This document shows, one piece after another, positions 23,589 through 35,768 of a stretch of 35,768 bases of DNA (position 1 is its first letter; each line of letters begins with the position of its first letter). The position numbers were made by a program, and so were the translations under genes. The stretch comes from Pseudonocardia sp. (GTDB lineage: Bacteria; Actinomycetota; Actinomycetes; Mycobacteriales; Pseudonocardiaceae), in contig JAJAZD010000355.1 in NCBI GenBank assembly GCA_026785945.1, positions 1-35,768 on the forward strand, in the 5' to 3' direction. The notes under the pieces were generated by a model. The model was not told where the DNA came from and searched no databases. It saw only the letters and a list, made by a program, of their open reading frames with translations.

Positions 23589-23673
23589 GTCCGAGTGGCG
23601 GAATGGCAGACGCGCTAGCTTGAGGTGCTAGTACCCTTTAACGGGTGTGGGGGTTCAAGTCCCCCCTCGGACA
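23589..23673 (+). tRNA. leuT: tRNA-Leu (anticodon GAG)
   Basis: The acceptor stem GTCCGAG pairs with CTCGGAC at 23666-23672, with discriminator A at 23673. The anticodon stem CTAGC/GCTAG encloses the loop TTGAGGT, giving anticodon GAG, which reads CUC and CUU leucine codons. The long variable arm (ACCCTTTAACGGGT) and the T arm with GGTTCAAGT are typical of a class II tRNA. CCA is not encoded. The 3' end is the integration site of the downstream island, which restores the last bases of the gene. The gene symbol is a generic label. Confidence 0.97.
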
Positions 23674-23674
23674 C
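23658..23674. repeat. attL: att core at the tRNA 3' end
   Basis: The 17 bases AGTCCCCCCTCGGACAC recur exactly at 35014-35030 in the same orientation, and the match breaks on both sides. They cover the 3' T stem and acceptor strand of tRNA-Leu, the classical target of tyrosine integrases. The left arm here (GGGTTCAAG) comes from the tRNA gene; the right arm (CTCGGACAC) would come from the element. Confidence 0.93.
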
Positions 23675-23680
23675 ACTTTC

Positions 23681-23696
23681 GTGGCATCCCTGCCAC
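23681..23696. promoter_or_regulatory. Hairpin 6 bases after attL
   Basis: GTGGCA-TCCC-TGCCAC forms a perfect 6-bp stem with a 4-base loop. A matching 16-base hairpin lies at exactly the same distance after the distal att copy (35037-35052). It could be an integrase arm site, a tRNA terminator or a leader structure of the AbrB-like gene. Confidence 0.7.
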
Positions 23697-23796
23697 ATCT
23701 GACGTGCCGGTGCTTGAAGGCACTCCAACACCTCGACCAGGCAGGGTGCTGGCTCCTGCGGTTGGTCCTCTCCTCACCCCGCTGTTCGTCCCGGCG

Positions 23797-24222
23797 GTGG
23801 TCCCGGGCTCGCTGCAACGTCGCCCCGTCGCAGCACGCACGGTCCTGCCGTTAGCGGCTGTGCCTGCCCCGCGGCCGATCGACGCCGCCGTCTACGGGAT
23901 GGCGGCGATCGACGACCGCGGCCGGATCGCCGACCTGCCCATCGTGCGTGCTCTCCGCTGGGATCCCGGTACGTGCGTCGGCGTGGAGGTGGACGGCGGC
24001 GTCGCGATGCTGACAGCCCGACCGGACGGCGTCGCCCGAGTCGCCCACGCCGGCAGGGTCCGCCTGCCGGCATCCGTCCGGCACCAGCTGCGCCTGGCCC
24101 CCGGGGACCGCGTCCTGCTCGTCGCACGACCGGCCGCGGCCCAGCTCGTCGTCTACCCACCAGCCGCGCTGGCCGCGATCCTCTCCAGCACCGGGCTCAC
24201 GGCGTCCGGAGGTCCGGCATGA
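23797..24222 (+). CDS. AbrB-like double-domain protein coupled to integrase (copy A)
   Basis: The 141-residue protein has two tandem swapped-hairpin-like units. The first is MAAIDDRGRIADLPIVRALRW. The second, VAHAGRVRLPASVRHQLRLAPGDRVLLVA, is a clear SpoVT/AbrB pattern ending in LVVYPPAAL. It is probably a DNA-binding regulator of the integrase or a recombination accessory factor. GTG 23797 is chosen by alignment with the two other copies (29231-29635 and 35141-35437); GTG 23746 is an alternative. Its TGA overlaps the integrase ATG (ATGA), so the two are made together. No classical excisionase is present, so this protein is a candidate for that role. Confidence 0.7.
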   Translation: MVPGSLQRRPVAARTVLPLAAVPAPRPIDAAVYGMAAIDDRGRIADLPIVRALRWDPGTCVGVEVDGGVAMLTARPDGVARVAHAGRVRLPASVRHQLRLAPGDRVLLVARPAAAQLVVYPPAALAAILSSTGLTASGGPA

Positions 24223-25250
24223 CCACCGTCCAACCCACCTCGTCCCCGAGCACGGCCGACGTCGACGCCGCCCGCCTGCTGCTGACGCGGATGGGCCTAT
24301 CGCCCCAGGACCTCCTCGACACCGCACCCGCCCGGCCGCCCGTGCCGACCTTCGCCGAGTACGTGCCCGTCGTGGCCGCCGCCGTCGGCCCCGGCACCCG
24401 CCGCGTGTACGGGTCCTACTGGAACCGCATCCTCGACCACTGGGCCGACCGCAGGCTCGATGACCCGACGCCCTCGGAGATCAAGAAGCTCGTCGAGCAC
24501 GTCAAGTACAACGTCGTCGCCCGCCGCAACGCCCGCGGCGGCCGCAGCGCGGGCGAGCACCTCATCTCCGCGCTGCGCTGCCTCTACCGGCACGCCGAGC
24601 ACGACGGCCTGATCAACCCGTCCGACAACCCGGCACTCAAGGTCGCCAAGCCCCGGCGCCTGCCCTCGACGCGGCGGGCGGTCGCCGATAAACGGCTTGC
24701 CGAGATCAACCAGATCGCCGCGACGACCGGGAACGACCCCGGCCTCGACACCCTGCTCCTGAAGCTGCACGTCGAGACCGCCTGCCGGCGTGGTGGGGCT
24801 CTCGCCCTCCGCCCGCAGGACCTCGACCCCACGCAGTGCCTGATCTTCCTGCGGGAGAAGGGGCAGACCGTGCGCTGGCAACCGGTCTCACCGACCCTGA
24901 TGGCCCATCTGCAGCACCACGCCGACGAACGGGGCGCTCCCCGCATCGGGCAGCTCCTGCGCTACGCCGACGGGCGGCCGATCACGACCCGCCGCTACGA
25001 CCATCTCTGGAAGCGCCTCGGCGCCCATCTACCGTGGGTCGCGACCCAGCAGATCAGCACCCACTGGCTGCGGCACACCACGCTGACCTGGGTGGAGCGC
25101 AACTTCGGCTACGCCGTCGCCCGCGCCTATGCCGGACACACCGACAGCGGCGGCGACGTCGGACCGACCGCGCCCTATGTCCGCGCCGGTGCCAACGAGA
25201 TCGCCGCCGCGCTCGCGACCCTGACCGCCGAGGCACATCCGTTGACGTGA
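24219..25250 (+). CDS. Tyrosine-type site-specific integrase (copy A)
   Basis: The 343-residue tyrosine recombinase has a SAM-like N-terminal core-binding part (RRVYGSYWNRILDHW) and all catalytic residues: R190 (ACRRGG), K214 (REKGQT), H282 and R285 (HWLRH), H307 (AGHTD) and Y320 (APYVRAG). It lies 545 bases from attL with its gene reading away from the tRNA, and is therefore the most likely enzyme for integration at tRNA-Leu. It is coupled by ATGA to the AbrB-like gene. Two relatives occur nearby, an intact one at 28200-29234 and a broken one at 35434 onward; the latter shares GTRRVYGSYWNRILD exactly. Confidence 0.93.
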   Translation: MTTVQPTSSPSTADVDAARLLLTRMGLSPQDLLDTAPARPPVPTFAEYVPVVAAAVGPGTRRVYGSYWNRILDHWADRRLDDPTPSEIKKLVEHVKYNVVARRNARGGRSAGEHLISALRCLYRHAEHDGLINPSDNPALKVAKPRRLPSTRRAVADKRLAEINQIAATTGNDPGLDTLLLKLHVETACRRGGALALRPQDLDPTQCLIFLREKGQTVRWQPVSPTLMAHLQHHADERGAPRIGQLLRYADGRPITTRRYDHLWKRLGAHLPWVATQQISTHWLRHTTLTWVERNFGYAVARAYAGHTDSGGDVGPTAPYVRAGANEIAAALATLTAEAHPLT

Positions 25251-25457: not shown

Positions 25458-27059
25458 ATGATCAACCGAGTGATCATCCACGGCTACCGGATCTTCCGAG
25501 CGTTCGAGTTCTGCCCCAACCCGGGCACCAACATCGTCGTCGGCGACAACGACTCCGGGAAGTCGACACTGCTGGAGGCGATCGCGCTGGCTCTCAGCGG
25601 GCGCGTCAATGGTCGGTGGGCGCAGGACGCGTTGGATCCGTACTGGTTCAACGCGCACCACGTCGGCGAGTTCTTCGCCGCGCTCAAGGCCGGTTCCGCG
25701 CCCTCGCCACCGGAGGTCATGATCGAGGTCTACTTCTCGCCCGACGCCGTCGGCCTCCACGACCTGCGCGGTATACACAACTCACGTCGCGACGACGTGC
25801 CGGGCATCAGCATGCGGATCACCCCGGCCAAGGAGTACCAGCAGGAGATCACCGAATACTTCGCGAACCCGGACTGCCCGGACATCCTGCCCACCGAATG
25901 GTTCGAGGTGGACTGGCGCGCCTTCTCCGACGAACGCCTGACCCGCAGACCCAAAGGCCTGGGCATCGCCCACATCGACTCGCGCACCATCCGGTCCTCC
26001 GCCGGCGTGGACTACCACACCCGCGAGATCCTCAGCAGCTTTATCGAACCCGGTGAGCGCGCCGCCATCGCCGTCGCTCACCGTGCGGCACGGCACGCGA
26101 TCAGCACTGACACGTTGGCGCCGGTCAACGAGCGGATCGCCGAGCACGGCAAGGCCCTGCACGACCAGCCGATCGGGCTGCACATGGACCAGTCGGCCGG
26201 TGCGTCCTGGGAGACCTCGGTCGTCCCGCAGGTCGCGGATGTCCCGTTCGCCATGGCCGGGCAAGGGCAACAAGCCGCGATCAAGGTGGTCCTTGCCATG
26301 GACCGCGCCTCGACGACGACGTCGTTCGCACTGATCGAGGAACCCGAGAACCACCTTTCCCACACGAGTCTCACGAAGTTGGTGGCGCGGATCGAGACCC
26401 TCGCCGGGGACCGGCAGGTCTTCCTGACCACCCACAGCTCGTTCGTCCTGAACCGACTCGGCCTCGACAAGCTCGTCCTGATCAGCGGTGGACGCTGCGC
26501 CTCATTCAACGATCTCCCTGCCGACACGGTGTCCTACTTTAAACGCCTGTCCGGCTACGACTCCATGAGGCTCGTCCTGGCCCGCAAGGCCGTACTCGTC
26601 GAGGGCCCATCGGACGAAATGATCTTCGAGCGTGCCTTCCGCGACCGCCACAACGGCCGCCGTCCCATGGAACTCGGCGTGGACGTCATTTCCATGGCCG
26701 GAGTGTCCCTCAAACGTGGGCTGCAGTTGTGCGCAGCGCTCGGCCGCCAGGCCGCGGCCATCCGCGACAACGATGGCCAGGACCCCGCGCACTGGACGAC
26801 GCCGCTGCAGCCGTGGCTCCAAGACGGCGTCAGGCAGGTCTTCATCGGCGATAATGCCGCCGGGAAGACGCTTGAGCCGCAGTTCGTCGCTGTGAATGAC
26901 GAGACCGCCCTGCGCTCACTCCTCAACATCCCCGATGACGAAGGCACCACCGAGTGGATGGGCAAACACAAGACCGAGTGGGCCCTGACGTTCAACGAGT
27001 CCAGCTTCGAGGCCACCTACCCTCCCTACCTCATCGACGCCGTCACCTTCGTCTCATGA
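25458..27059 (+). CDS. gajA: GajA-like OLD-family ATPase/TOPRIM nuclease
   Basis: The 533-residue protein has an ABC/RecF-type ATPase split around a helical insert, followed by a TOPRIM nuclease domain. Motifs: Walker A GDNDSGKS (29-36), signature-like MAGQGQQ (266-272), Walker B ALIEEPENHL (291-300), switch TTHSS (324-328), TOPRIM VEGPSDE (E382, D386) and the D437/D439 pair in RDNDGQ. This is the OLD-family architecture. The next gene, overlapped by ATGA, is a UvrD-like helicase, and that pairing defines Gabija, in which GajA cuts DNA and nucleotide depletion relieves its inhibition. The protein is slightly shorter than the roughly 578 residues I recall for the type GajA. Cytosolic. The gene name is by analogy. 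Confidence 0.85.
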   Translation: MINRVIIHGYRIFRAFEFCPNPGTNIVVGDNDSGKSTLLEAIALALSGRVNGRWAQDALDPYWFNAHHVGEFFAALKAGSAPSPPEVMIEVYFSPDAVGLHDLRGIHNSRRDDVPGISMRITPAKEYQQEITEYFANPDCPDILPTEWFEVDWRAFSDERLTRRPKGLGIAHIDSRTIRSSAGVDYHTREILSSFIEPGERAAIAVAHRAARHAISTDTLAPVNERIAEHGKALHDQPIGLHMDQSAGASWETSVVPQVADVPFAMAGQGQQAAIKVVLAMDRASTTTSFALIEEPENHLSHTSLTKLVARIETLAGDRQVFLTTHSSFVLNRLGLDKLVLISGGRCASFNDLPADTVSYFKRLSGYDSMRLVLARKAVLVEGPSDEMIFERAFRDRHNGRRPMELGVDVISMAGVSLKRGLQLCAALGRQAAAIRDNDGQDPAHWTTPLQPWLQDGVRQVFIGDNAAGKTLEPQFVAVNDETALRSLLNIPDDEGTTEWMGKHKTEWALTFNESSFEATYPPYLIDAVTFVS

Positions 27060-28126
27060 ACCGAGCCGTCCTCGCCGTGGCCGGATCCCGCAAGACCCAG
27101 TCGATCGTGGATGCCTGCAGCGACACGTCCGACAACCCGCGCCGGTTGGTCCTCACCTACACCATCGCCGCCCAGCGCAATGTCGAGGCGCGCCTCGCCA
27201 GAGCATGCTCCGCGCAGCTTCCCGACGTCAGCGGCTGGTACTCCTTTCTGCTGCACCACTGGATCCGGCCCTACCTGCCCCTACTCTTCCCTGGCCGGCG
27301 CCTGACTGGCCTCAACTTCACCAAGCAGACCGGCGTCGACTACGCCACCGGCCCGGCCCGCTACCTCGACGGAGATTCCCGCGCCTACAAGCGCTACCTT
27401 TCCAAATTGGCCTTTGACGTCGCCGCGGCCAGCAACGGCGCTGTCATCGATCGTCTAGAGCACATCTACGACGAGATCCATATCGATGAGGCCCAAGACC
27501 TCACCGGTTACGACCTCGAAGTGCTCGAGAAACTCTTCGCCTCACGCATCGACATCCGCCTCGTCGGCGACGTCCGTCAATCCACTTTCAATACCAATCC
27601 TCAAGACCTCAAGAACAGAAAGTACCGAGATCTAAAGATGCTCGACTGGTTCGCTAGCCACCAGACAACGGGGGTACTAGATGTCGAGCAATCCAACCGA
27701 ACCTGGCGCAGCAACCAGCTTGTCGCCACCTTCTCCGACACCATTTTCCCGAAAGACTGCGACTTCCCTCCTACCGAATCGCTGCAGACAAGAACCACGA
27801 CGCACGATGGCGTCTTTATCGTGCCCACGAAGCACATCGACGCGTACATCGAAGCGTTCGCACCCCTATGCCTCCGCCATTCCTCCGCGACCCGGACGCC
27901 GGATACCACGCAGTCGCTCAACTTCGGTGTTGCCAAAGGGCTCACCTGTGACCGGGTACTAATCTTTCCGACCGGTTCGATTGCCGACTTCCTCAACAAG
28001 GGCAAGATGCTGACCGGAAAGTCAGCCTGCGGCCTCTACGTCGCTGTGACTCGAGCTATCCACAGCGTCGCATTCGTCATCGACGGATATCGCGGCGGCA
28101 CCCTTGCAACATGGAGCCCAGCATGA
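27056..28126 (+). CDS. gajB: GajB-like short UvrD-family helicase
   Basis: The 356-residue superfamily 1 helicase-like protein carries Walker B IHIDEAQD (141-148), motif III GDVRQ (171-175), a motif IV-like EQSNRTWRSN, motif V KGLTCDRVLIF and motif VI LYVAVTRA. The Walker A is unusual: AVAGSRKTQ (7-15) keeps K13 and T14, but an arginine replaces the second glycine of GKT. The protein is shorter than the roughly 494 residues I recall for the type GajB, so accessory (1B/2B) domains must be reduced. The ATG overlaps the nuclease stop. The 3' half is visibly richer in A and T than the island average, a sign of separate origin. It converges with the integrase gene downstream. Confidence 0.82.
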   Translation: MNRAVLAVAGSRKTQSIVDACSDTSDNPRRLVLTYTIAAQRNVEARLARACSAQLPDVSGWYSFLLHHWIRPYLPLLFPGRRLTGLNFTKQTGVDYATGPARYLDGDSRAYKRYLSKLAFDVAAASNGAVIDRLEHIYDEIHIDEAQDLTGYDLEVLEKLFASRIDIRLVGDVRQSTFNTNPQDLKNRKYRDLKMLDWFASHQTTGVLDVEQSNRTWRSNQLVATFSDTIFPKDCDFPPTESLQTRTTTHDGVFIVPTKHIDAYIEAFAPLCLRHSSATRTPDTTQSLNFGVAKGLTCDRVLIFPTGSIADFLNKGKMLTGKSACGLYVAVTRAIHSVAFVIDGYRGGTLATWSPA

Positions 28127-28199: not shown

Positions 28200-29234
28200 T
28201 CATCGGCTCCGCCTTGGTACCGAACCGGCAGCAAGCGGGTGCGGTTCCTCGACCAGACCGGACAGCGCCGACGCCACCTCGTGCACGTCGGCTCGGACGT
28301 ACGTCGACGTGCTGCCCGCGTCGCTGCGCCCGTTGTGGCCCGCGTAGGCCCGGGCGACGGCGTAGCCGAAGTTGCGCTCCACCCAGGTCAGGGTCGTGTG
28401 TCGCAGCCAATGGGTGCTCACCTGCTGAGCGGCCACCCAGGGGAGCCGAACGCCGATCCGCTTCCACAGGTGGTCGTATCGGCGGGTGGTGATCGGGCGG
28501 CCGCCGCGGTATAGTAGCATGCCCTCCACGTCCTCCTTCGAGCGCTCTCGGTGGTGATCGGCGAGCCTGCTCATCAAGGTCGGCGAAACGGGCTGCCACC
28601 GGACGGTCTCGCCCTTCTCCCGAAGGCGGATGAGGCACTGGTCCGGGTCGAGATCGACCGGCCGCAGGGCGAGCGCGCCGCCTCGGCGGCACGCCGTCTC
28701 GACGTGTAGCCGGAGGATGAGCAGGTTGAGGTCGGGGTCGTTGCCCGAGCGACCGGCCACGTCGAGGATCTCCGCGAGACCCGCATCGGGGATGGCTCGG
28801 CGCGTGCTGGCCAACCGGCGCGGCTTGGACACGCGGATGGCCGGGTTGTTCGCCTCCGTGATCAGCCCGTCGGACACCGCGTGCCGGTACAGGCAGCGGA
28901 GCGCCGAGATCAGGTGCTCGGCGGCGCTCCGGCCGCCGCGGGAGTTCCTGCGGACAACAACGTCGGCCTTGACCCGTTCGGCGAGTTGCTTGATCTCCAG
29001 CGGGGTCACCTCGTCGATCCGGCGGTCGCCCCACTCGGCCGCGACGCGGCGCCAGTAAGGCCCGTACGCCGTCCGTGTCGCCGTGGGGACGGCCTCGGCG
29101 ACGTCGTCGAGGTAGCGACGGATCGTTGGGACCTCGGCCGTCGTAACGGAGGACTTCGTGCCCAGCAACTGCTCCGGTGTGATGCCGAGGCGGTCCAGCA
29201 GAAGCCTGGCCGCGGCCAGTTCCGTGGAGGTCAT
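28200..29234 (-). CDS. Tyrosine-type site-specific integrase (copy B)
   Basis: The 344-residue tyrosine recombinase is closely related to copy A along its length. Catalytic motifs are ACRRGG (Arg), REKGET (Lys), HWLRH (His and Arg), AGHNG (His) and a tyrosine in TSTYVRAD. A stretch of about 40 bases around the WVERNFGYAVAR codons appears identical to copy A. It lies in the opposite orientation, so copies A and B form large imperfect inverted repeats around the Gabija-like pair. It is translated from ATG 29234, which overlaps the stop of the AbrB-like gene. No att-like core was found beside it, so its target is unknown. Confidence 0.92.
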   Translation of the reverse strand: MTSTELAAARLLLDRLGITPEQLLGTKSSVTTAEVPTIRRYLDDVAEAVPTATRTAYGPYWRRVAAEWGDRRIDEVTPLEIKQLAERVKADVVVRRNSRGGRSAAEHLISALRCLYRHAVSDGLITEANNPAIRVSKPRRLASTRRAIPDAGLAEILDVAGRSGNDPDLNLLILRLHVETACRRGGALALRPVDLDPDQCLIRLREKGETVRWQPVSPTLMSRLADHHRERSKEDVEGMLLYRGGRPITTRRYDHLWKRIGVRLPWVAAQQVSTHWLRHTTLTWVERNFGYAVARAYAGHNGRSDAGSTSTYVRADVHEVASALSGLVEEPHPLAAGSVPRRSR

Positions 29235-29635
29235 GTGACGCTCGGCTGGCGCTGCCGCAGCATCGCCTCGACCGACGTCGAGGGATAGATCTCCAGGAGC
29301 GCCATGCCACGGTGGGCGAGGACGAGCACGCGGCTCCCGGGTGTCAGACGGCAGCGATGGCGCAGTGGCGCCGGGACCCGCAGGTACCCGCGACGGCCGA
29401 TCCGGTATCCGTCCGACTCCGAGGGCGAGACGGCGATAACCCCGTCGACGAGCCGGCAGGACACGACGGATCCCGTGTTCCATCCGAGTTCGCGCAGCGG
29501 CGCCAGGACGCCGACGCGTCCCCGGTCGTCGACCGTCGTCGTGTGGAAGGCCACCGTGCGCGCCGAGGTGGCGGGCTCCAACTGCGGCACGGGAAGGCCG
29601 CGGACCCGCCGATGTGGCTCGCCCTCGTCGGTCAT
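29231..29635 (-). CDS. AbrB-like double-domain protein (copy B)
   Basis: The 134-residue protein has the same two-unit layout as copy A. The first unit is TTVDDRGRVGVLAPLRELGWNTG. The second is IGRRGYLRVPAPLRHRCRLTPGSRVLVLA, followed by LLEIYPSTS. It overlaps the methyltransferase stop at its start (ATGA, 29632-29635) and the integrase start at its end (ATGA, 29231-29234), so it is sandwiched in a three-gene coupled operon. The open frame extends upstream into the methyltransferase, but ATG 29635 matches the coupling and the length of copy A. It is probably a DNA-binding regulator or recombination accessory protein. Confidence 0.72.
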   Translation of the reverse strand: MTDEGEPHRRVRGLPVPQLEPATSARTVAFHTTTVDDRGRVGVLAPLRELGWNTGSVVSCRLVDGVIAVSPSESDGYRIGRRGYLRVPAPLRHRCRLTPGSRVLVLAHRGMALLEIYPSTSVEAMLRQRQPSVT

Positions 29636-30612
29636 GCCGCTCGGGTCTCCCCTGCGGCATCGGCGGCGTGCCCGGCAGCCTGGGTAGCGACGTTTGAGCC
29701 GGCAGGCAGTACGCAAAAGACCAGCACATCCTCGTGCGCGATCAGGTGCAAGGGCAGGCCGGCGTCGCGCTGCTTGCGGATGAAGTCGCGCTGGAAGAAC
29801 GAGCCGCGGGCGATGAGGCCGTCGCCGGCGACGCGGCCTAGCAGGGCGACGCAGCGCTCGACGGGGACCAGGCCGGCGCGGGTGCCGCAGGCCAGGATCT
29901 GGGAGGGCAGGTCGATCAGCTCGGCGTGCTCGCGCCAGGGCCGGACGGTGATGACGACGTGTGCGCCGGGGCGCAGGACGTCGGCGAGCGCGGCGAGGAT
30001 CCGTTCGAAGCCGGCGAGCAGGCGGTGGTGGCCGATGTTGGCGAGGTTCCCGCGGTCGAGCAGGTTGCCGTAGAGGTGGTGGTACTTCTGCACGCCACCG
30101 CCGGGGATGACCGAGACCTGGCCGTGGGTCGAGGGCCCGTAGGGCGGGGAGGTGACCACGAGCGCCGCCCGGCCGATCGCCTCGGGCGAGAGCAGGGTCG
30201 CCAGCTGGCGGGCGTCGCCGTGCAGGACACGGGCATCGCCGGCGAAGGAAGCGCCGAGGGAGTCTGCGAGATCGAGGTTGGCGCAGGCGACGTCGACCCA
30301 GTGCGGTTCGTACTCGACGCCGATGGCGCGGCGGCCGAGGTGCAGTGCCTCGACCAGCGTGGTGCCGATCCCGCACATCGGGTCCAGGACGAGGTCGCCG
30401 GGGCGCGTGTAGTGGGCGATGGCGTGGGCGGCGACGGCGGGCAGCATCTTCGCCGGGTGCGCCGTCGAGCCGGGGGTGTAGCGGCCGCGGCGCTGGGAGG
30501 CGGGCGGCTGCTGCCCTGTGGGCCACACCGACAGGGGCAGGTCGTCGAGGTTGGGGACGTCGGCCGTAGTGGGCAGCGCGGTGGCGCGCACGGAGTGGGA
30601 GCTGTCGAGCAT
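29632..30612 (-). CDS. DNA methyltransferase (N4-cytosine/N6-adenine type), orphan
   Basis: The 326-residue protein has the SAM-binding motif I DPMCGIGTTLVEA near residue 80 and the catalytic motif IV VTSPPYG near residue 150. TSPPY is typical of amino-methyltransferases and favours N4-cytosine. HPAKMLP just before motif I resembles motif X, so the order is X-I-IV. The target-recognition part would be the segment after motif IV. ATG 30612 has GGAAGG seven bases upstream and is preferred to ATG 30666. No restriction endonuclease gene is beside it. It is the first gene of the coupled operon with the AbrB-like gene and integrase B. It could modify island DNA, the att region or defence-related sites; these are hypotheses. 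Confidence 0.8.
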   Translation of the reverse strand: MLDSSHSVRATALPTTADVPNLDDLPLSVWPTGQQPPASQRRGRYTPGSTAHPAKMLPAVAAHAIAHYTRPGDLVLDPMCGIGTTLVEALHLGRRAIGVEYEPHWVDVACANLDLADSLGASFAGDARVLHGDARQLATLLSPEAIGRAALVVTSPPYGPSTHGQVSVIPGGGVQKYHHLYGNLLDRGNLANIGHHRLLAGFERILAALADVLRPGAHVVITVRPWREHAELIDLPSQILACGTRAGLVPVERCVALLGRVAGDGLIARGSFFQRDFIRKQRDAGLPLHLIAHEDVLVFCVLPAGSNVATQAAGHAADAAGETRAA

Positions 30613-30900
30613 GGGTCTGCCTTCCGGGTCGTCGGGAGTGGTTCGGCGGGCTTGGGCGCAGGTCATCGCCGCGGCGGCCGGGCCGTGGGGTGGGCCGTGG
30701 GGTGGGCGGCGGCGTCGTGTCCGACAACCCGCGAGTTGCGTAACCGCGCGGCGAGCGACGGGACGCTGCTCAGGTCCTGGACCTGGGCCTGCGGTCTCGT
30801 TCGAGTGGCGCTGAGCCGTTGTGAGTGCCCTTCAGGATTCATGAGTCGTTGCTCCAATTGGTGAGTCCAGATCGGCTCTGCTGAAGACGGGAGACGTGGG
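30613..30900. other. Divergent intergenic region with 12-bp tandem repeat
   Basis: These 288 bases separate the minus-strand methyltransferase operon from the plus-strand recombinase trio, so promoters for both are expected here. A tandem repeat GGGCCGTGGGGT occurs twice at 30680-30703. The 8-mer CCCTTCAG at 30828-30835 recurs at 33953-33960 beyond the trio. I see no gene in this stretch. Confidence 0.6.
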
Positions 30901-32289
30901 TTGACGCTCGGCGTCGTACGGGACCTGCGTGCGGCCCGGGCACCGGTCGGGCCGGAGGAGCTCGCGGCGTTCGAGACCGACGTGATGGCCGAGTTCGTGA
31001 TGGCACGCTCGGCGGCCGGGCTGGCCGACAGCACGATCCGCGGCGAGGTCGGCCAGCTCGACCGGGTCCGTGTCTGGTTCGACCGCCCGGTGTGGGAGAT
31101 GGACCCGTCCGACGCCGACACCTACTTCGGCCAGGAGCTGCGCGCGGCATCGAAGGCGACCCGGCTGGCGCGGGCGCAGGCGATCAGGATCTTCTTCGCG
31201 TTCCTGCAGATGCGCCACGCCGCGCAGATCCATGTGATGACCGGTCGGGTTGTCACCTGCCCGGTCGATGAGATGAACCAGCCCCGCGGGGCCAAGGAAG
31301 CGAAGCTGCGGGTGCCGCCGGGCGACCGCGAGGTGGAGGACCTGTTCAGCCGCTGGGCCGTACAGCTCACGACGTGCCGCAAGTTCGCTCCGACCGCCCG
31401 GAACTACACCGCCGCCCGGCTGATGGCCACCGTCGGGTTGCGGGTCAACGAGGCCCGCCGTCTCGACCTCGCCGACCTCAAGTGGGATCTCGGGCGCCTC
31501 GGCAAGATCCATGTCCGGCACGGGAAGGGATCGCGCGGTTCGGGCCCGCGGGAGCGGATGGTCCCGATGATCGGCGGTGCGGACCGGTTGCTGCGCTGGT
31601 ACGTCGAGGACGTGTGGGGCCACCTCGATGATGACCACGCCCGGCCCGGCGCTCCGCTGTTCTGCTCCGAGCGACGCAACCTCGACGGCACGAAGGCCCG
31701 CGTCGGTGACGACGTCCTGCGCGAAGGCCTCGCCCGAGCCGCGGCGACACACCTGCCGGCGTGGGCGTCGCGGCTCACCCCGCACGTGCTGCGCCACTAC
31801 TGCGCCTCGCAGCTCTACCGCACCGGAATGGACCTGATCATGATCCAGGAGCTGCTCGGTCACGCCTGGATCGCGACCACCATGGGATACGTCCACGTGC
31901 ACCGCAGCCACGTCGAGGACGCGTGGATCGCCGGTCAGGCCCGGGGCGGCGGCACGACTGGGAGGGTTGATCTGAGTGCGCTGGAACCTGCGTCTGGCTG
32001 CGGCGAACCGCGGCATCTGGAAGGCCTCCGAGCTGCAGCGCAGCCTCGCCGAGCACGGCCTGGTCATCTCGGCGGGCAAGATGTTGGGGCTGTGGTCGGG
32101 CCGGCCGATCTCCCTCAAGCTCGCCGACCTCGACGTCATCTGCGTCGCGCTCGGCTGCGAGGTCGGCGAACTGCTGATCCCCGAGCCCGACACCGTCACC
32201 CGACCCGCCACCGACACGACGGCCACTGCGGCGTCGGCAACCGCGGGCAACCGCGGCGGGCCGATCGGAGTCGTCCCCCGGCGCCGTGA
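30901..32289 (+). CDS. Tyrosine recombinase, first gene of trio
   Basis: The catalytic residues are complete: R181 (GLRVNEA), K209 (RHGKGS), H295 and R298 (HVLRH), H321 (LLGH) and Y330 (TTMGY). The recombinase homology ends near residue 350. The frame then continues about 105 codons to 32289, fully overlapping the XRE gene in another frame, and that tail is arginine/proline-rich like a shadow translation. The ancestral stop was probably near 31970, where TGA codons lie in the other two frames. Either a small frameshift has removed the stop or the extension is real. The TTG start at 30901 has GGGAG about ten bases upstream. It forms a unit with the two genes that follow. Confidence 0.82.
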   Translation: MTLGVVRDLRAARAPVGPEELAAFETDVMAEFVMARSAAGLADSTIRGEVGQLDRVRVWFDRPVWEMDPSDADTYFGQELRAASKATRLARAQAIRIFFAFLQMRHAAQIHVMTGRVVTCPVDEMNQPRGAKEAKLRVPPGDREVEDLFSRWAVQLTTCRKFAPTARNYTAARLMATVGLRVNEARRLDLADLKWDLGRLGKIHVRHGKGSRGSGPRERMVPMIGGADRLLRWYVEDVWGHLDDDHARPGAPLFCSERRNLDGTKARVGDDVLREGLARAAATHLPAWASRLTPHVLRHYCASQLYRTGMDLIMIQELLGHAWIATTMGYVHVHRSHVEDAWIAGQARGGGTTGRVDLSALEPASGCGEPRHLEGLRAAAQPRRARPGHLGGQDVGAVVGPADLPQARRPRRHLRRARLRGRRTADPRARHRHPTRHRHDGHCGVGNRGQPRRADRSRPPAP

Positions 32290-32314
32290 CGGCCGCACCC
32301 TTCCCCCGGCCTGA
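31976..32314 (+). CDS. XRE-type helix-turn-helix protein of trio
   Basis: The 112-residue protein begins MRWNLRLAAANRGIWKASEL and continues with a Cro/C1-like helix-turn-helix (LVISAGKMLGLWSGRP) and LDVICVALGCEVGELL, the hallmark C-terminal part of XRE domains. The last 40 residues are threonine/alanine/arginine-rich and probably disordered. The GTG at 31976 follows a TGA directly. The same small XRE protein is common between paired recombinases in actinobacteria, by recollection. It likely regulates the trio or helps assemble the recombination complex. It overlaps the long tail of the upstream frame. Confidence 0.82.
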   Translation: MRWNLRLAAANRGIWKASELQRSLAEHGLVISAGKMLGLWSGRPISLKLADLDVICVALGCEVGELLIPEPDTVTRPATDTTATAASATAGNRGGPIGVVPRRRDGRTLPPA

Positions 32315-32317
32315 GCG

Positions 32318-33949
32318 GTGGACCGCCGCGCAGACCGCCCGGTGCGCAGCTGCCCGGACTGCCTCGCGTGGGGCGTGACCGGCTACCGAGGCCGGTGCAT
32401 CCCCTGCCTGCGCTACACCCGCACCTACCCGGTCGGGACCTGCGAAACCTGCGCCCGCGTCGTCCCCCTGCGGGTCGGGCACTGCCGGCTGTGCTGGGAC
32501 CAGGCCCGTCTCGACCGACCCTACGTCGAGCGGCACACCGTCCTGCTCCCCCACGTCCGCGAGGTGCGCGCCCATCAGCTGTCCTTCGCGGGCATGTCGT
32601 TCAAGCCCCGCGGGGACCTGATCGCTCAGCGCCGAGCCCAGCGACAACTCACCGATCCCGCGGGCCACCCGCCGCGCCAGCCCGACGGGCAGATGCTGCT
32701 GTTCGACGGGCTCGCGCGCAGCTACCGCTACGGCCGGATCGATTTGCGTCGTGAACCCCTCGGCGACAACCCCGTCCTGCGCGCCGCTGTCGCCCTCGCC
32801 GCCAGCCAGGCCCAGCTGCACGGCTGGAGCGATACCGTCGTGTCGACCCTCAACCGCAATTTGGTCATGGTGTTGTCCCAGCTCGGGGCGGGCGAGCAGG
32901 TCCGCTACTCCGACTACGTCGACGTGCTGCGCACCCGGTCCGCTTGCCTGCGGCGCACCACCGACATCCTGGCTGGCGTTGGGGTCCTGCTCGACGACCG
33001 GGTGCCCGCGTTCGACGCCTGGGTCGACCGGCAGATCGCCGACCTCGCACCGGGCATCGCCGCCGACGTTCGCGAGTGGGCGCTCACCCTGACCACCGGT
33101 GACGTCCGGACCCGACCGCGCGACGAGCGATCGATCCGCGGCTACCTCGCCGTCGCACGCCCCGCGCTGCTCGCCTGGTCCGAAGAGCACGCGCATCTGC
33201 GCGAGATCACCCACGACGACCTGCTCACCGCGGTCGCCGACCTGCACGGCCACCAGCGGATCACCACCCTGGTCGCGCTGCGCTGCCTGTTCGGCTGGGC
33301 TAAACGCACAGGCAGGATCTTCACCGACCCCGCCGCCCGCCTCCGTGTCGGCACAGCCTCCATCCGGCTGCTGCAGCCACTGGCGGCCGGGCAGATCGGG
33401 CTCAGTCTCGCCGCCGGGGCCACCCCGCAGGCGCGGGTGTTCCTCGTCCTGGCCGCCGTGCACGCCGCCCGTCCCAGCGACGTCCGTGCCATGCAGCTCG
33501 ACGACGTCGACCTGGGCAACCTCCGGCTCACCGTGAACGGCCATGAGCGGCGTCTCGACGACCTCACCCGCACCGTGCTGATCGCCTGGCTCGACCACCG
33601 CCGCCGACGCTGGCCCGTGACGGCGAATCCCCACCTGCTGATCAGCCGCACCACCGCCCTCGCGGTCGGACCGGTCAGCCACCCGTGGGTCGACCGTGAA
33701 CTGCGCGGGCTCCCCGCGACCCTCGACCGGATCCGCCGAGACCGCCACCTTGAGGAAGCCCTCGCCCGCGGTCCCGACCCACTGCATCTGGCCGAGGTGT
33801 TCGGTCTCAGCTCCAAGACCGCGATCCACTACGCCCGCTCCGCCCGCGAGCTGCTCGCCGAGCCGCCCAACCCCGCAGCGCCGGGATCACCGGGAACCCC
33901 AGCCCCAACAACCCCGGGAACGCCGACACGCTCCTCGGGTTCCCCGTGA
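32318..33949 (+). CDS. Zinc-ribbon tyrosine-recombinase-like partner
   Basis: The 543-residue protein starts with two zinc-ribbon-like units: C12/C15 with C27/C30, and C42/C45 with C56/C59. A long helical middle and a C-terminal domain with the layout of a tyrosine recombinase follow. The catalytic set is degenerate: arginine is kept in AARPSDVRAM and in the position of the HxxR arginine (RIRR), and a tyrosine in IHYARS, but the HxxR histidine reads as arginine and the second histidine position as leucine (VFGLSS). It may be a structural or DNA-binding partner of the first recombinase. The end is a proline/glycine/threonine-rich tail. The GTG start is three bases after the XRE stop. Confidence 0.72.
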   Translation: MDRRADRPVRSCPDCLAWGVTGYRGRCIPCLRYTRTYPVGTCETCARVVPLRVGHCRLCWDQARLDRPYVERHTVLLPHVREVRAHQLSFAGMSFKPRGDLIAQRRAQRQLTDPAGHPPRQPDGQMLLFDGLARSYRYGRIDLRREPLGDNPVLRAAVALAASQAQLHGWSDTVVSTLNRNLVMVLSQLGAGEQVRYSDYVDVLRTRSACLRRTTDILAGVGVLLDDRVPAFDAWVDRQIADLAPGIAADVREWALTLTTGDVRTRPRDERSIRGYLAVARPALLAWSEEHAHLREITHDDLLTAVADLHGHQRITTLVALRCLFGWAKRTGRIFTDPAARLRVGTASIRLLQPLAAGQIGLSLAAGATPQARVFLVLAAVHAARPSDVRAMQLDDVDLGNLRLTVNGHERRLDDLTRTVLIAWLDHRRRRWPVTANPHLLISRTTALAVGPVSHPWVDRELRGLPATLDRIRRDRHLEEALARGPDPLHLAEVFGLSSKTAIHYARSARELLAEPPNPAAPGSPGTPAPTTPGTPTRSSGSP

Positions 33950-33981: not shown

Positions 33982-34467
33982 ATGCGCGAGTACCGCGCCA
34001 AGCAGGTCACCCTCCAGTACCTCCGACCGGTCATCGCGATCCTCCGCGAAGAGCTCGGCGTCCGCTACCCGCTCGCGACCCTCAAGCCCTACACCTCCGG
34101 ACGCAGCCTCGCGCTCAAGGTCCAGAAACAGGTCGGACTCGACCCGTCACTCAACATCGTCGTTCTCGGCCGCGACGGATCCGTCCAGCTCACCGACACT
34201 GCCGCGGCCTTCCTGGAGAAGGTCGACTTCGACGACGACGGCACCGGCGACGCCCGCCGCCTCTACCCCCTCGGCCGCTCCGTCCCCGTTGTCCTCGACC
34301 CCGACCACGGCTTCGGCGAGCCCACCCTCACCACCGGGGCGCGTACGGAGGCGATCGCCGAACTCGTCGCCGCCGGCGAAACACGCGAACGGGTCGCCAC
34401 CGTCTACGACATCACCGTCGACGACGTCGACTTCGCAGTTCAGTACGAGCACGACCACGCTGCCTGA
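33982..34467 (+). CDS. DUF433-type antitoxin, N-terminally short
   Basis: The 161-residue protein has a C-terminal DUF433 helix-turn-helix (GARTEAIAELVAAGETRERVATVYDITVDDVDFAV), as in VapB45-like antitoxins. The earlier part (VTLQYLRPVIAILREELGVRYPLAT) matches the middle of such proteins, but the usual N-terminal MerR-like DNA-binding domain of about 70-80 residues is absent, and an in-frame TGA lies 15 bases upstream. GGAGGA abuts the ATG with almost no spacing, so translation may be weak. The PIN-like gene starts five bases after its stop. A truncated antitoxin created by the adjacent trio is possible; a naturally short family member is the alternative. Confidence 0.65.
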   Translation: MREYRAKQVTLQYLRPVIAILREELGVRYPLATLKPYTSGRSLALKVQKQVGLDPSLNIVVLGRDGSVQLTDTAAAFLEKVDFDDDGTGDARRLYPLGRSVPVVLDPDHGFGEPTLTTGARTEAIAELVAAGETRERVATVYDITVDDVDFAVQYEHDHAA

Positions 34468-34471
34468 AGCC

Positions 34472-34924
34472 GTGCCCGCAGCCCTACAGACCCACCGCTG
34501 GTTCGTCGACGAGAACAGCCTCGGCGTCGCGAAGGCGCTCGCCCACGTGCGCGGCGACATCACCTGGCCCGGAGCACCCGCCGGCCCGGTTCCCGCGGGC
34601 GCCGCCGACACTGCGTGGTTGCCTGTCATCGGCCAGGCCGGCCTGGTCGTGCTCACCCGTGACAAGCGCATCCGCAGCCGCCCGCTCGAACGCCAAGCCC
34701 TGCTCGACCACAACGTCCGAGCCTGCTTCCTCACCAGCGGCGGCAGCCTCACCCTCTTCGAACAACTCCGACTCTGGCTCCGGTACTGGGACGACATCGA
34801 GGACCTCGTAGCCGACCAACCGGCACCCTGGCTCGCCAGCGTCACCCGCGCGGGCGTCCGGATCTTCGACACCCGACAATCGCCCGGCCAGCGACACGGT
34901 CGACCGTCTACGGAGATCCCGTAG
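34472..34924 (+). CDS. PIN-like toxin (VapC45/DUF5615-type)
   Basis: The 150-residue protein fits the PIN-like fold of VapC45-type putative RNases. FVDENSLGVAKAL supplies the first acidic pair (D, E); WLPVIGQAGLVVLTRDKRI holds the conserved TRD; RACFLTSGG follows. PIN-like nucleases cleave RNA using a cluster of acidic residues and a metal ion. GTG 34472 is chosen because it lies just after the DUF433 stop; CTG 34460 is possible. The pairing of DUF433 and this fold in adjacent genes matches Rv2018/Rv2019 of M. tuberculosis, from memory. It is the last gene before attR. The final 25 residues are basic and variable. Confidence 0.7.
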   Translation: MPAALQTHRWFVDENSLGVAKALAHVRGDITWPGAPAGPVPAGAADTAWLPVIGQAGLVVLTRDKRIRSRPLERQALLDHNVRACFLTSGGSLTLFEQLRLWLRYWDDIEDLVADQPAPWLASVTRAGVRIFDTRQSPGQRHGRPSTEIP

Positions 34925-35006
34925 CCACGACCTGACCCTTCGGATCACGCGCTCGCTATCGTCCAGCACATGAGCCCCCCGGGCGGGGCAGAATTGCCAC
35001 GGAATC

Positions 35007-35030
35007 GTGTCCGAGTCCCCCCTCGGACAC
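35007..35030. repeat. attR: distal att core, perfect inverted repeat
   Basis: Bases 35014-35030 equal the att core at the tRNA 3' end. Here the core is part of a perfect 9-bp inverted repeat: GTGTCCGAG (35007-35015), spacer TCCCCC (35016-35021), CTCGGACAC (35022-35030). This is the expected form of a tyrosine-recombinase core site, with the spacer as the likely overlap region. It also resembles the acceptor stem of tRNA-Leu folded on itself. The 83 bases from 34924 to here hold no gene. Confidence 0.92.
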
Positions 35031-35036
35031 CCCACG

Positions 35037-35052
35037 GTAGCTCCCCTGCTAC
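35037..35052. promoter_or_regulatory. Hairpin 6 bases after distal att core
   Basis: GTAGC-TCCCCT-GCTAC matches the hairpin after attL at 12 of 16 positions and lies at the identical distance from the core. One stem pair differs by a compensating change (G-C to A-T), so the structure itself seems to be conserved. Confidence 0.7.
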
Positions 35053-35064
35053 GAATCACGTACC

Positions 35065-35088
35065 TGTGTTCAAGCGCGCTTGAACACA
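35065..35088. promoter_or_regulatory. Perfect 24-bp palindrome upstream of AbrB-like copy C
   Basis: TGTGTTCAAGCG is followed directly by its reverse complement. It lies 53 bases before the likely ATG of the AbrB-like gene, so it is a candidate dimer-binding operator or integrase arm site. The equivalent position after attL (23706-23736) holds a diverged version. Confidence 0.8.
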
Positions 35089-35140: not shown

Positions 35141-35437
35141 ATGACGACGCGCCTCGTGCCATCGATCACTCCCGGCCATCAGCTACACGGTCGCGACGCC
35201 TCCCGCCCGGCACTCCCGCAGGCGCGCCCGCTGCGGATCCCGCTGGTGCCGGTGCGCAGTAACCCGGAGTCGGTGTACGGACTGGCGGTCATCGACTGTC
35301 ACGGCCGCACCGCGGACCGCACCGTGCTTCACGCGCTGGGCTGGTGCCCGGGCCGACCGATCGCGCTGAGCATCATCAGCGGCTCGGTGCTGCTCGGCGC
35401 CCACCACACCGCCCTCCTGCCGGGAGCCACGCCATGA
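35141..35437 (+). CDS. AbrB-like protein (copy C, single-domain)
   Basis: The 98-residue protein aligns with the first unit of copy A (VYGLAVIDCHGRTADRTVLHALGW) but stops before the second, canonical AbrB unit. The N-terminal arm (PLRIPLVPVRSNPESVYG) matches copy A. The stop overlaps the next ATG (ATGA at 35434-35437), as in copies A and B, so the coupling survives although the protein is shortened. It is probably a decayed or single-domain variant. It lies just beyond the distal att core and so belongs to a second element that runs out of the window. GAGAGAGG lies about 11 bases before ATG 35141. Confidence 0.65.
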   Translation: MTTRLVPSITPGHQLHGRDASRPALPQARPLRIPLVPVRSNPESVYGLAVIDCHGRTADRTVLHALGWCPGRPIALSIISGSVLLGAHHTALLPGATP

Positions 35438-35768
35438 CCACGGCACAGCCACGCACAGCCACACCCAGCAACGGCAGGCCACACCCGGCAGGCCGAGCTC
35501 GACGCCGCCCGACTGCTGCTCGACCGCATGGGCATCACCCCCGCCGACCTGATCACCACCTCCCGCCCGCGGGCCGCGGTCCCGACCTTCACCCAGTACA
35601 TCCCGAAGGTTCGAGACGCCGTCGGTGACGGCACCCGCCGCGTCTACGGCTCCTACTGGAACCGCATCCTCGACCGCTGGCCCGACCACCGCCTCGACGA
35701 CATCACCCCGACCGACATCAAGCAGCTCGTCGAGCACACCAAGACCCACGTCGTGGCCCGACGCAACA
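35434..35768 (+). pseudogene. Integrase N-terminus (copy C), frameshifted, cut by window end
   Basis: The coupled ATG at 35434 opens a frame that ends at 35626-35628 and is not integrase-like after about 19 codons. The integrase-like protein (AELDAARLLLDRMG, VPTFTQYIPKV, GTRRVYGSYWNRILDRW) is in the other frame from about 35489 to the window end, and that frame has no start codon before the ATG inside DRMG. One base lost or two gained between 35450 and 35490 would restore it. It is close to copy A. It may be a dead integrase, a programmed frameshift or a sequence error. Confidence 0.72.

Follow-up and report, generated by a model that had tools for sequence, protein, structure and literature searches.

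Introduction

Genomic islands and other mobile elements that depend on tyrosine recombinases have been described in several forms. GInt islands possess a dedicated recombinase module of several genes (ginABCD) and direct-repeat attachment (att) sites, with cargo of 2.5 to at least 70 kb (PMC5385486). Actinomycete integrative and conjugative elements (AICEs) such as pSAM2 mostly target the 3' ends of tRNA genes and have been reported in tandem arrays (PMC3218068). Some mobile elements use simple tyrosine recombinases such as IntBrujita, made of core-binding and catalytic domains only, and the study in question suggests that elements with them are regulated less intricately (PMC8138268). A gene for an AbrB/MazE protein adjoins a recombinase gene in the toxin-antitoxin pairs found beside Tn3 resolvase genes (PMC7157771). 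The multi-gene module with direct-repeat att sites, the actinobacterial host, the tRNA 3'-end target with tandem arrangement, the two-domain recombinase and the AbrB-type neighbour all recur in a 35,768-base stretch of Pseudonocardia sp. (hereafter the window), which is one entire contig (G000:C355) of a 380-contig draft. The element under study is a two-gene unit in which a small gene for a predicted tandem swapped-hairpin protein precedes a tyrosine recombinase (integrase) gene. We propose, as a reading about equally open to being right or wrong, that this unit is the recombination module of actinobacterial islands in tRNA-Leu(GAG), and that its MraZ-like partner binds arm sites in trans. 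The initial annotation knew of no described system with such a pairing; our full-text literature search likewise found no description of an integrase paired with an MraZ-like protein, which is not proof of absence.

Results

The unit occupies the following positions in the window.

23589..23674, + strand: tRNA-Leu(GAG), integration target, whose 3' end is the left att core (ARAGORN)
23658..23674, + strand: left att core AGTCCCCCCTCGGACAC in the tRNA 3' end
23681..23696: P1, 16-bp palindrome of the left end, a fixed-spacing motif
23710..23731: P2, 22-bp palindrome of the left end, imperfect at this site
23797..24222, + strand: small protein 1, tandem swapped-hairpin (PF04014 on the C half, E 1.4e-6; family profile, E 2e-43)
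24219..25250, + strand: integrase 1, tyrosine recombinase, att-adjacent type (PF00589, E 6.7e-11)
28200..29234, - strand: integrase 2, tyrosine recombinase, convergent type
29231..29635, - strand: small protein 2, tandem swapped-hairpin, predicted MraZ-like fold
34954..35006: island right end, CGCTATCG...CATG block and P1-like GGCAGAATTGCCAC (34987-35000)
35014..35030, + strand: right att core, junction to the next island
35037..35087: left end of a second, tandem island, with P1 at 35037-35052 and P2 at 35066-35087 (perfect palindrome)
35141..35437, + strand: small protein 3, first hairpin unit only
35434..35768, + strand: integrase 3, frame broken near the start, cut off by the contig end

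The 17-nt tRNA-derived core at 23658 recurs at 35014 and thereby delimits an 11.4-kb island; the second core also means that copy 3 belongs to another island. Directly after the first island comes another left end, which has its own P1 and P2 and leads into small gene 3 and the broken integrase 3; the islands of the window are stacked in tandem. The initial annotation had described three copies with the same gene order, the same ATGA overlap and the same double hairpin. Copies 1 and 2 bear this out, each with the small gene before the integrase, a 4-bp ATGA overlap and two AbrB-type hairpin units (the start of small gene 1 is uncertain, with a GTG at 23797 or 23746); they are also convergent (+ and -), an arrangement that had gone unremarked. 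Copy 3 does not fit. Its small protein (98 aa) matches positions 1-90 of the 155-position family profile, its ATGA is present but the frame of that ATG hits a stop, and the integrase-family match lies in a different frame (35489-35767), close to the contig end at 35768. The idea of three equal modules was therefore rejected, copy 3 being degraded and part of a second island.

The pairing itself is widespread. A search of public genomes with integrase 1 gave 79 loci (in Amycolatopsis, Micromonospora, Saccharopolyspora, Kibdelosporangium, Actinoplanes, Nocardia and others), and a small open reading frame (ORF) adjoins the integrase in 74 of these relatives; 55 of the 74 pairs overlap by exactly 4 bp (ATGA or GTGA), and in 69 some overlap is possible. 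In the five others the small gene is broken (L055, L068), the locus starts inside it (L075), an extra ORF stands between the genes (L028), or there is none (L079). Within the same family, figures come from 150 integrase places and 150 small-gene places among the matches listed. A listed small gene lies at most 1.3 kb upstream on the same strand of 114 listed integrases, 105 of them at 80 bp or less; all 36 remaining integrases were fetched, and 33 also have a small gene, some as partial matches, which brings the total to 147 of 150. An integrase family usually occurring without its partner, the observation that would have told against the initial annotation, was thus not seen. Listed small-gene places without a listed integrase number 36, and 13 of the 18 that we read have integrase pieces beside them.

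The two proteins also share their history. Small-protein and integrase distances correlate over 108 pairs drawn from the 116 integrases of our tree set (Mantel r 0.72; none of 2000 permutations as high), and the nearest pair is identical for both proteins in 54 of the 108. Part of that tree is a clade of convergent-type integrases (R clade, below): the nearest small protein belongs to an R-clade partner in 16 of 22 R-clade pairs and to a non-R partner in 81 of 86 non-R pairs. The claim that the AbrB-like protein is a functional partner of the recombinase is strongly supported at the level of sequence by this co-evolution, by the 147 paired integrases of 150, and by the att arm sequences, which track the small protein.

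Two observations concern departures from the usual pair. The small gene is kept without an integrase match at L191, L197, L198 and L200, with an att core still adjacent at L191, and such retention hints at a function of its own. In one lineage an ORF of about 300 aa, hydrophobic-looking by eye and with a weak Pfam match only, is inserted between small gene and integrase (L134:4303-5223, L136:14337-15203, L028:5084-5965).

At most left ends the sequence continues without gaps, 6 nt past the core, as GTGGCATCCCTGCCAC (P1), ATCTGACGTACCG and GTGGTCAAGCGCGCTTGACCAC (P2). Scored against this consensus, which was derived from the same ends (maximum 52), 34 of 49 left ends reach 29-44 and two reach 26-27, the mean of 2000 random stretches being 19.8 and their highest score 27. 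Judged by eye, P1 changes in sequence but stays symmetric (GTAGC..GCTAC, GTGGC..GCCAC), and the arm sequence differs in some islands, such as the GGTGAGATTTCCCC type at L012/L019. P2 lies about 60-115 bp upstream of the estimated small-protein start at the left ends of att-adjacent (L) pairs. Within 390 nt upstream of the small gene, the left-end motif scores above the highest null value (29) in 28 of 43 L rows, in 8 of 51 rows without a pair label (unpaired) and in 1 of 14 convergent (R) rows, namely L031. A shared operator of L and R pairs had been sought by a strict palindrome scan, which returned a TCAAGC-type palindrome in 12 of 43 L and 1 of 14 usable R rows (again L031) and was too strict to decide; the consensus scan was added after it, and the candidate was rejected.

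At the right ends, across the core, TTGCATCCCTGCGTCAGGCAGGGGTTCATG scores above the random maximum (17) in 8 of 12 cases. In the window this P1-side string is at chance level (14/30), but the adjoining block, CATGTGnnnGACGATAGCG, is matched at 16 of 16 positions against a null maximum of 12, and three other right ends match it likewise. By count, the P1 units are 15-16 bp away from the TCCCCC spacer on each side, and in the window TCCCCC is the centre of a perfect 9-6-9 inverted repeat at 35007-35030. This placing suggests the sites of a recombination complex; an ordinary operator at a promoter would have no need of sites at both ends.

The AlphaFold2 model of small protein 2 has two AbrB-type hairpin units in one chain, the tandem swapped-hairpin arrangement of MraZ, and MraZ is the best structural relative of the model, at 12-16% identity. 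Pfam detects the second unit alone (PF04014, which passes the cut-off in copy 1 but not in copy 2); apart from weak unrelated models, small proteins 1 and 2 have no other match at E<=1, that of MraZ included. The small protein is thus probably MraZ-like and DNA-binding, to judge from the predicted model; it differs from MraZ transcription factors in this lack of a Pfam match, in its low identity and in its integrase neighbour, mraZ being located in the cell-division cluster. A MazEF-type toxin-antitoxin was rejected because the pair holds no toxin gene: the gene that follows is the integrase at 147 of the 150 listed integrase places.

The integrase is predicted to consist of a core-binding and a catalytic domain, as simple tyrosine recombinases do, without an N-terminal three-stranded arm-binding domain. 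Six residues that we take to be catalytic are present in copy 1 and invariant across an alignment of 41 sequences including copies 1 and 2. In its AlphaFold2 model (predicted local distance difference test score, pLDDT, 82) helices 12-24 and 29-33 precede the core-binding domain, and no arm-binding Pfam model matches at E<=1; the top Foldseek match is nonetheless lambda Int. The integrase occurs in 120 of 297 genomes of the same family and in only 3 of 246 genomes of an even class-wide sample (own genome counted in both). A phage or plasmid module was rejected, tblastn of integrase 1 finding no match in phage (50,697 records) or plasmid (72,556 records) collections; of three candidate stretches in IMG/VR, one was a relative. 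PHROGs families phrog_31174 and phrog_38262, both of unknown function, match the two proteins, and relatives should accordingly exist in some of the viral or prophage records from which PHROGs was built.

Convergence of two pairs recurs as well. Where two of the 150 listed integrases lie within 10 kb of each other, they are convergent in 12 cases, divergent in one and on the same strand in three. The pairs are also convergent in the window and in 12 of 13 fetched regions, which were picked for looking convergent and so confirm the architecture, its frequency being given by the 150 listed. In seven convergent couples only 138-325 bp separate one integrase from the other. In the integrase tree (116 rows, quick method), a clade of 23 (Shimodaira-Hasegawa-like approximate likelihood ratio test, SH-aLRT, 97) contains 11 convergent, 11 unpaired and one unlabelled row, and no att-adjacent one; another of 45 (support 90) holds 32 att-adjacent, 12 unpaired and a single row labelled R, L031, whose label is probably wrong, since the left-end motif stands upstream of it (43/52). 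The sequence upstream of the 23 R-clade rows, short in a few of them, showed no att core. Convergent second copies outside this clade, at L104/L113/L140 (support 87) and at L138, the sister of its own partner (support 100), suggest a repeated origin. One region (G331:C1:6362000-6397000, with L136 and L137) has two convergent couples in about 17 kb, the first enclosing KAP-NTPase and NB-ARC/TPR proteins.

The remaining genes of the island are:

25458..27059, + strand: GajA-like (Gabija) OLD nuclease, cargo (PADLOC, E 1e-175)
27056..28126, + strand: GajB-like UvrD helicase, cargo (PADLOC, E 4.8e-106, query from 26954)
29632..30666, - strand: N6/N4 DNA methyltransferase, ATGA overlap with small gene 2 (PF01555, E 6.6e-18)
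30901..32289, + strand: additional tyrosine recombinase (PF00589, E 1.6e-21)
32318..33949, + strand: diverged integrase-like protein (phrog_1, E 1.4e-9)
33982..34467, + strand: DUF433 protein, antitoxin-like by position (PF04255, E 2.8e-6)
34472..34924, + strand: PIN-like protein, candidate toxin paired with DUF433 (PF18478, E 6.5e-13, query from 34289)

The Gabija-like genes (25458-28126) sit exactly between the two convergent integrases. Two consecutive extra integrase-like genes (30901-33949) are found in the same island, and the DUF433 and PIN-like genes at its right end (33982-34924) resemble a toxin-antitoxin pair, the DUF433 protein presumably being the antitoxin. Relatives of the methyltransferase (E<=1e-10) were found at 10 distinct loci, each upstream of an R-clade pair on the same strand, at distances from overlap (in the window) to 3.4 kb (L044); one R subclade (support 87) comprises 11 rows, of which 10 have such a relative and L042 shows none in about 1.3 kb upstream. 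These solitary N6/N4 methyltransferases with R-type pairs (window 29632-30666; L010, L023, L028, L044, L050, L115, L133, L134, L137) may protect or mark island DNA.

Exact att cores bound spans of 108 kb (G324), 114 kb (G482), 88 kb (G365), 87 kb (G300) and 72 kb (G353), besides the 11.4 kb of the window; in all six the tRNA 3'-end repeat stands at both ends, as in site-specific tRNA islands. A span may exceed one island, for G365 holds a degenerate core inside, before an integrase pair (L108). Clustering the ORFs of the six stretches, flanks included, left two families common to all, the integrase and the small protein; gene calling there was by simple GC frame, the small-family member of the window was copy 3, and profiles located small genes 1 and 2 inside the island. 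About 40 kb is common to G300 and G353 but runs in opposite order, G300 being flipped relative to the tRNA; in flipped islands the att core, whether that of the tRNA or that of the neighbouring island, is followed by a right-type end. PF01580 (E<=1e-5) occurs in one of the five large spans (G365, weak) and TrwC in one (G324), so that by these two marks most spans appear not to be conjugative; an AICE or conjugative element was rejected on these counts, VirB4 and other relaxases not having been searched. The tRNA locus was matched in 40 of 40 same-genus genomes (G560 only weakly), with the core in 14 of 20 loci read; within 1.5 kb downstream the sequence varies from genome to genome, too much for a clean empty-site comparison. 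Cargo elsewhere includes, at L136, a KAP NTPase that weakly matches QatA/PifA, together with an NB-ARC/TPR protein; at L133, a DEDDh exonuclease with a STAND-like NTPase; and at L129, a nucleotidyltransferase. Several of the 11 cargo and neighbour ORFs searched matched nothing. That the convergent interval is a defence slot is suggestive only.

Discussion

We propose that an island family of Actinobacteria (Amycolatopsis, Saccharopolyspora, Micromonospora, Actinoplanes, Nocardia and relatives) inserts in the 3' end of tRNA-Leu(GAG), stacks in tandem and carries very different cargo. Its recombinase would have core-binding and catalytic domains only, and the MraZ-like partner would bind the P1/box/P2 arm sites next to the core, taking over in trans a task that lambda-type integrases perform in cis with an arm-binding domain of their own. 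The partner would thereby be an accessory factor and probably a directionality factor, perhaps also an autoregulator setting integrase dose, since P2 lies upstream of the small gene (small gene 1 in the window, and at L ends). Two convergent pairs would probably represent two diverged recombinases for two unlike ends, or for integration versus excision, and the interval between them could collect cargo such as defence genes. The full combination, in which arm binding in trans by a dedicated, co-translated MraZ-fold protein goes together with two diverged convergent pairs on two unlike ends and a swap-in defence slot, is advanced tentatively.

Several results weigh against this reading. Thirteen of the 49 left ends score below 26, and the left-end motif is upstream of none of the 22 R-clade small genes, so that a single binding rule fails to cover both types. 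Linkage may partly explain the correlation between arms and small protein, for the spacer beside the arms also follows the small protein (0.45, 0/500), and the arms follow its N-terminal linker (0.48) more than its first hairpin (0.39). The small protein evolves faster than the integrase. Three of the 150 listed integrases (L234, L237, L241) and one of the 79 relatives (L079) have no partner, and five of the 18 solitary small genes read have no integrase match (L191, L196, L197, L198, L200), L196 having an ORF that resembles an integrase start by eye. Some islands are flipped relative to the tRNA (G300 and G353, L162-L170; L156:9836), which a fixed att polarity leaves unexplained. The L and R types are clustered on the tree without being clean, with 24 changes for L (shuffled mean 35.4) and 12 for R (16.9), values that none of 500 label shuffles reached.

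The small protein could instead be a repressor of its own operon, binding P2 near the promoter and keeping the integrase low with no role in recombination. The position of P2 ahead of the small gene fits this, as do the gene overlap, which would suit joint control, and the fact that MraZ, the best structural relative, was solved with its promoter. We consider it somewhat unlikely: R-clade pairs share the operon form and lack the motif present in 28 of 43 L rows, and P1-like units also occur at right ends, across the core. The arm-site data favour a role of the partner at island ends. A usual excisionase, needed for excision but dispensable and non-architectural for integration, would fit the gene order, since actinobacterial integrating elements likewise have xis ahead of int and mostly need a recombination directionality factor for excision (PMC3218068). 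The palindromes beside the core look like architectural sites, and this makes such an excisionase unlikely. So does the predicted MraZ/AbrB fold, which to our knowledge is unlike that of familiar excisionases.

A hitch-hiking former antitoxin (MazE-like) or island immunity or stability factor would explain the PF04014 MazE match and the small genes next to decayed or missing integrases; we hold it very improbable, given the missing toxin gene, the adjacency and co-phylogeny with the integrase and the two hairpin units in one chain. As for the second, convergent pair, it could be a separate nested element unrelated to the first, as R-type pairs without a seen partner (11 rows of the R clade) and the methyltransferase of one R subclade would allow. 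The recurrence of convergence over other orientations, its appearance at three points in the tree (the R clade, L104/L113/L140 and L138), the narrow gaps between integrases and the lack of an att core upstream of R-clade rows speak against nesting, which we find possible but doubtful.

If the proposed trans-acting partner is real, steering integrases would have a second structural solution, a separate MraZ-like protein in place of the fused arm-binding domain of lambda-type enzymes. The pair would be a marker to map a large class of actinobacterial islands, able to carry defence genes, of which we found no description, and the site-specific integration system at tRNA-Leu(GAG) would be a candidate tool.

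The comparison with known systems places the locus as follows. GInt elements, the earliest described of which, in pseudomonads, lie within an ABC transporter gene, have three integrases and a helix-loop-helix protein in one operon, ginABCD (PMC5385486); here there is one integrase and one MraZ-like protein per operon, often with two convergent operons, in tRNA-Leu. AICEs have xis directly before int and an FtsK-like Tra with a Rep gene (PMC3218068), whereas here the gene preceding the integrase is no known Xis and FtsK_SpoIIIE (PF01580) is absent from four of the five large spans. Unlike recombinases of the IntBrujita type (PMC8138268), the integrase comes with arm-like sites and a dedicated partner. 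The Tn3 resolvase case, of which the source has one instance, is a two-gene toxin-antitoxin with a PIN toxin (PMC7157771), and the pair here has no toxin. The locus would thus belong to a known kind, islands with a multi-protein tyrosine-recombinase module, and what appears new is the MraZ-like partner together with the convergent double module.
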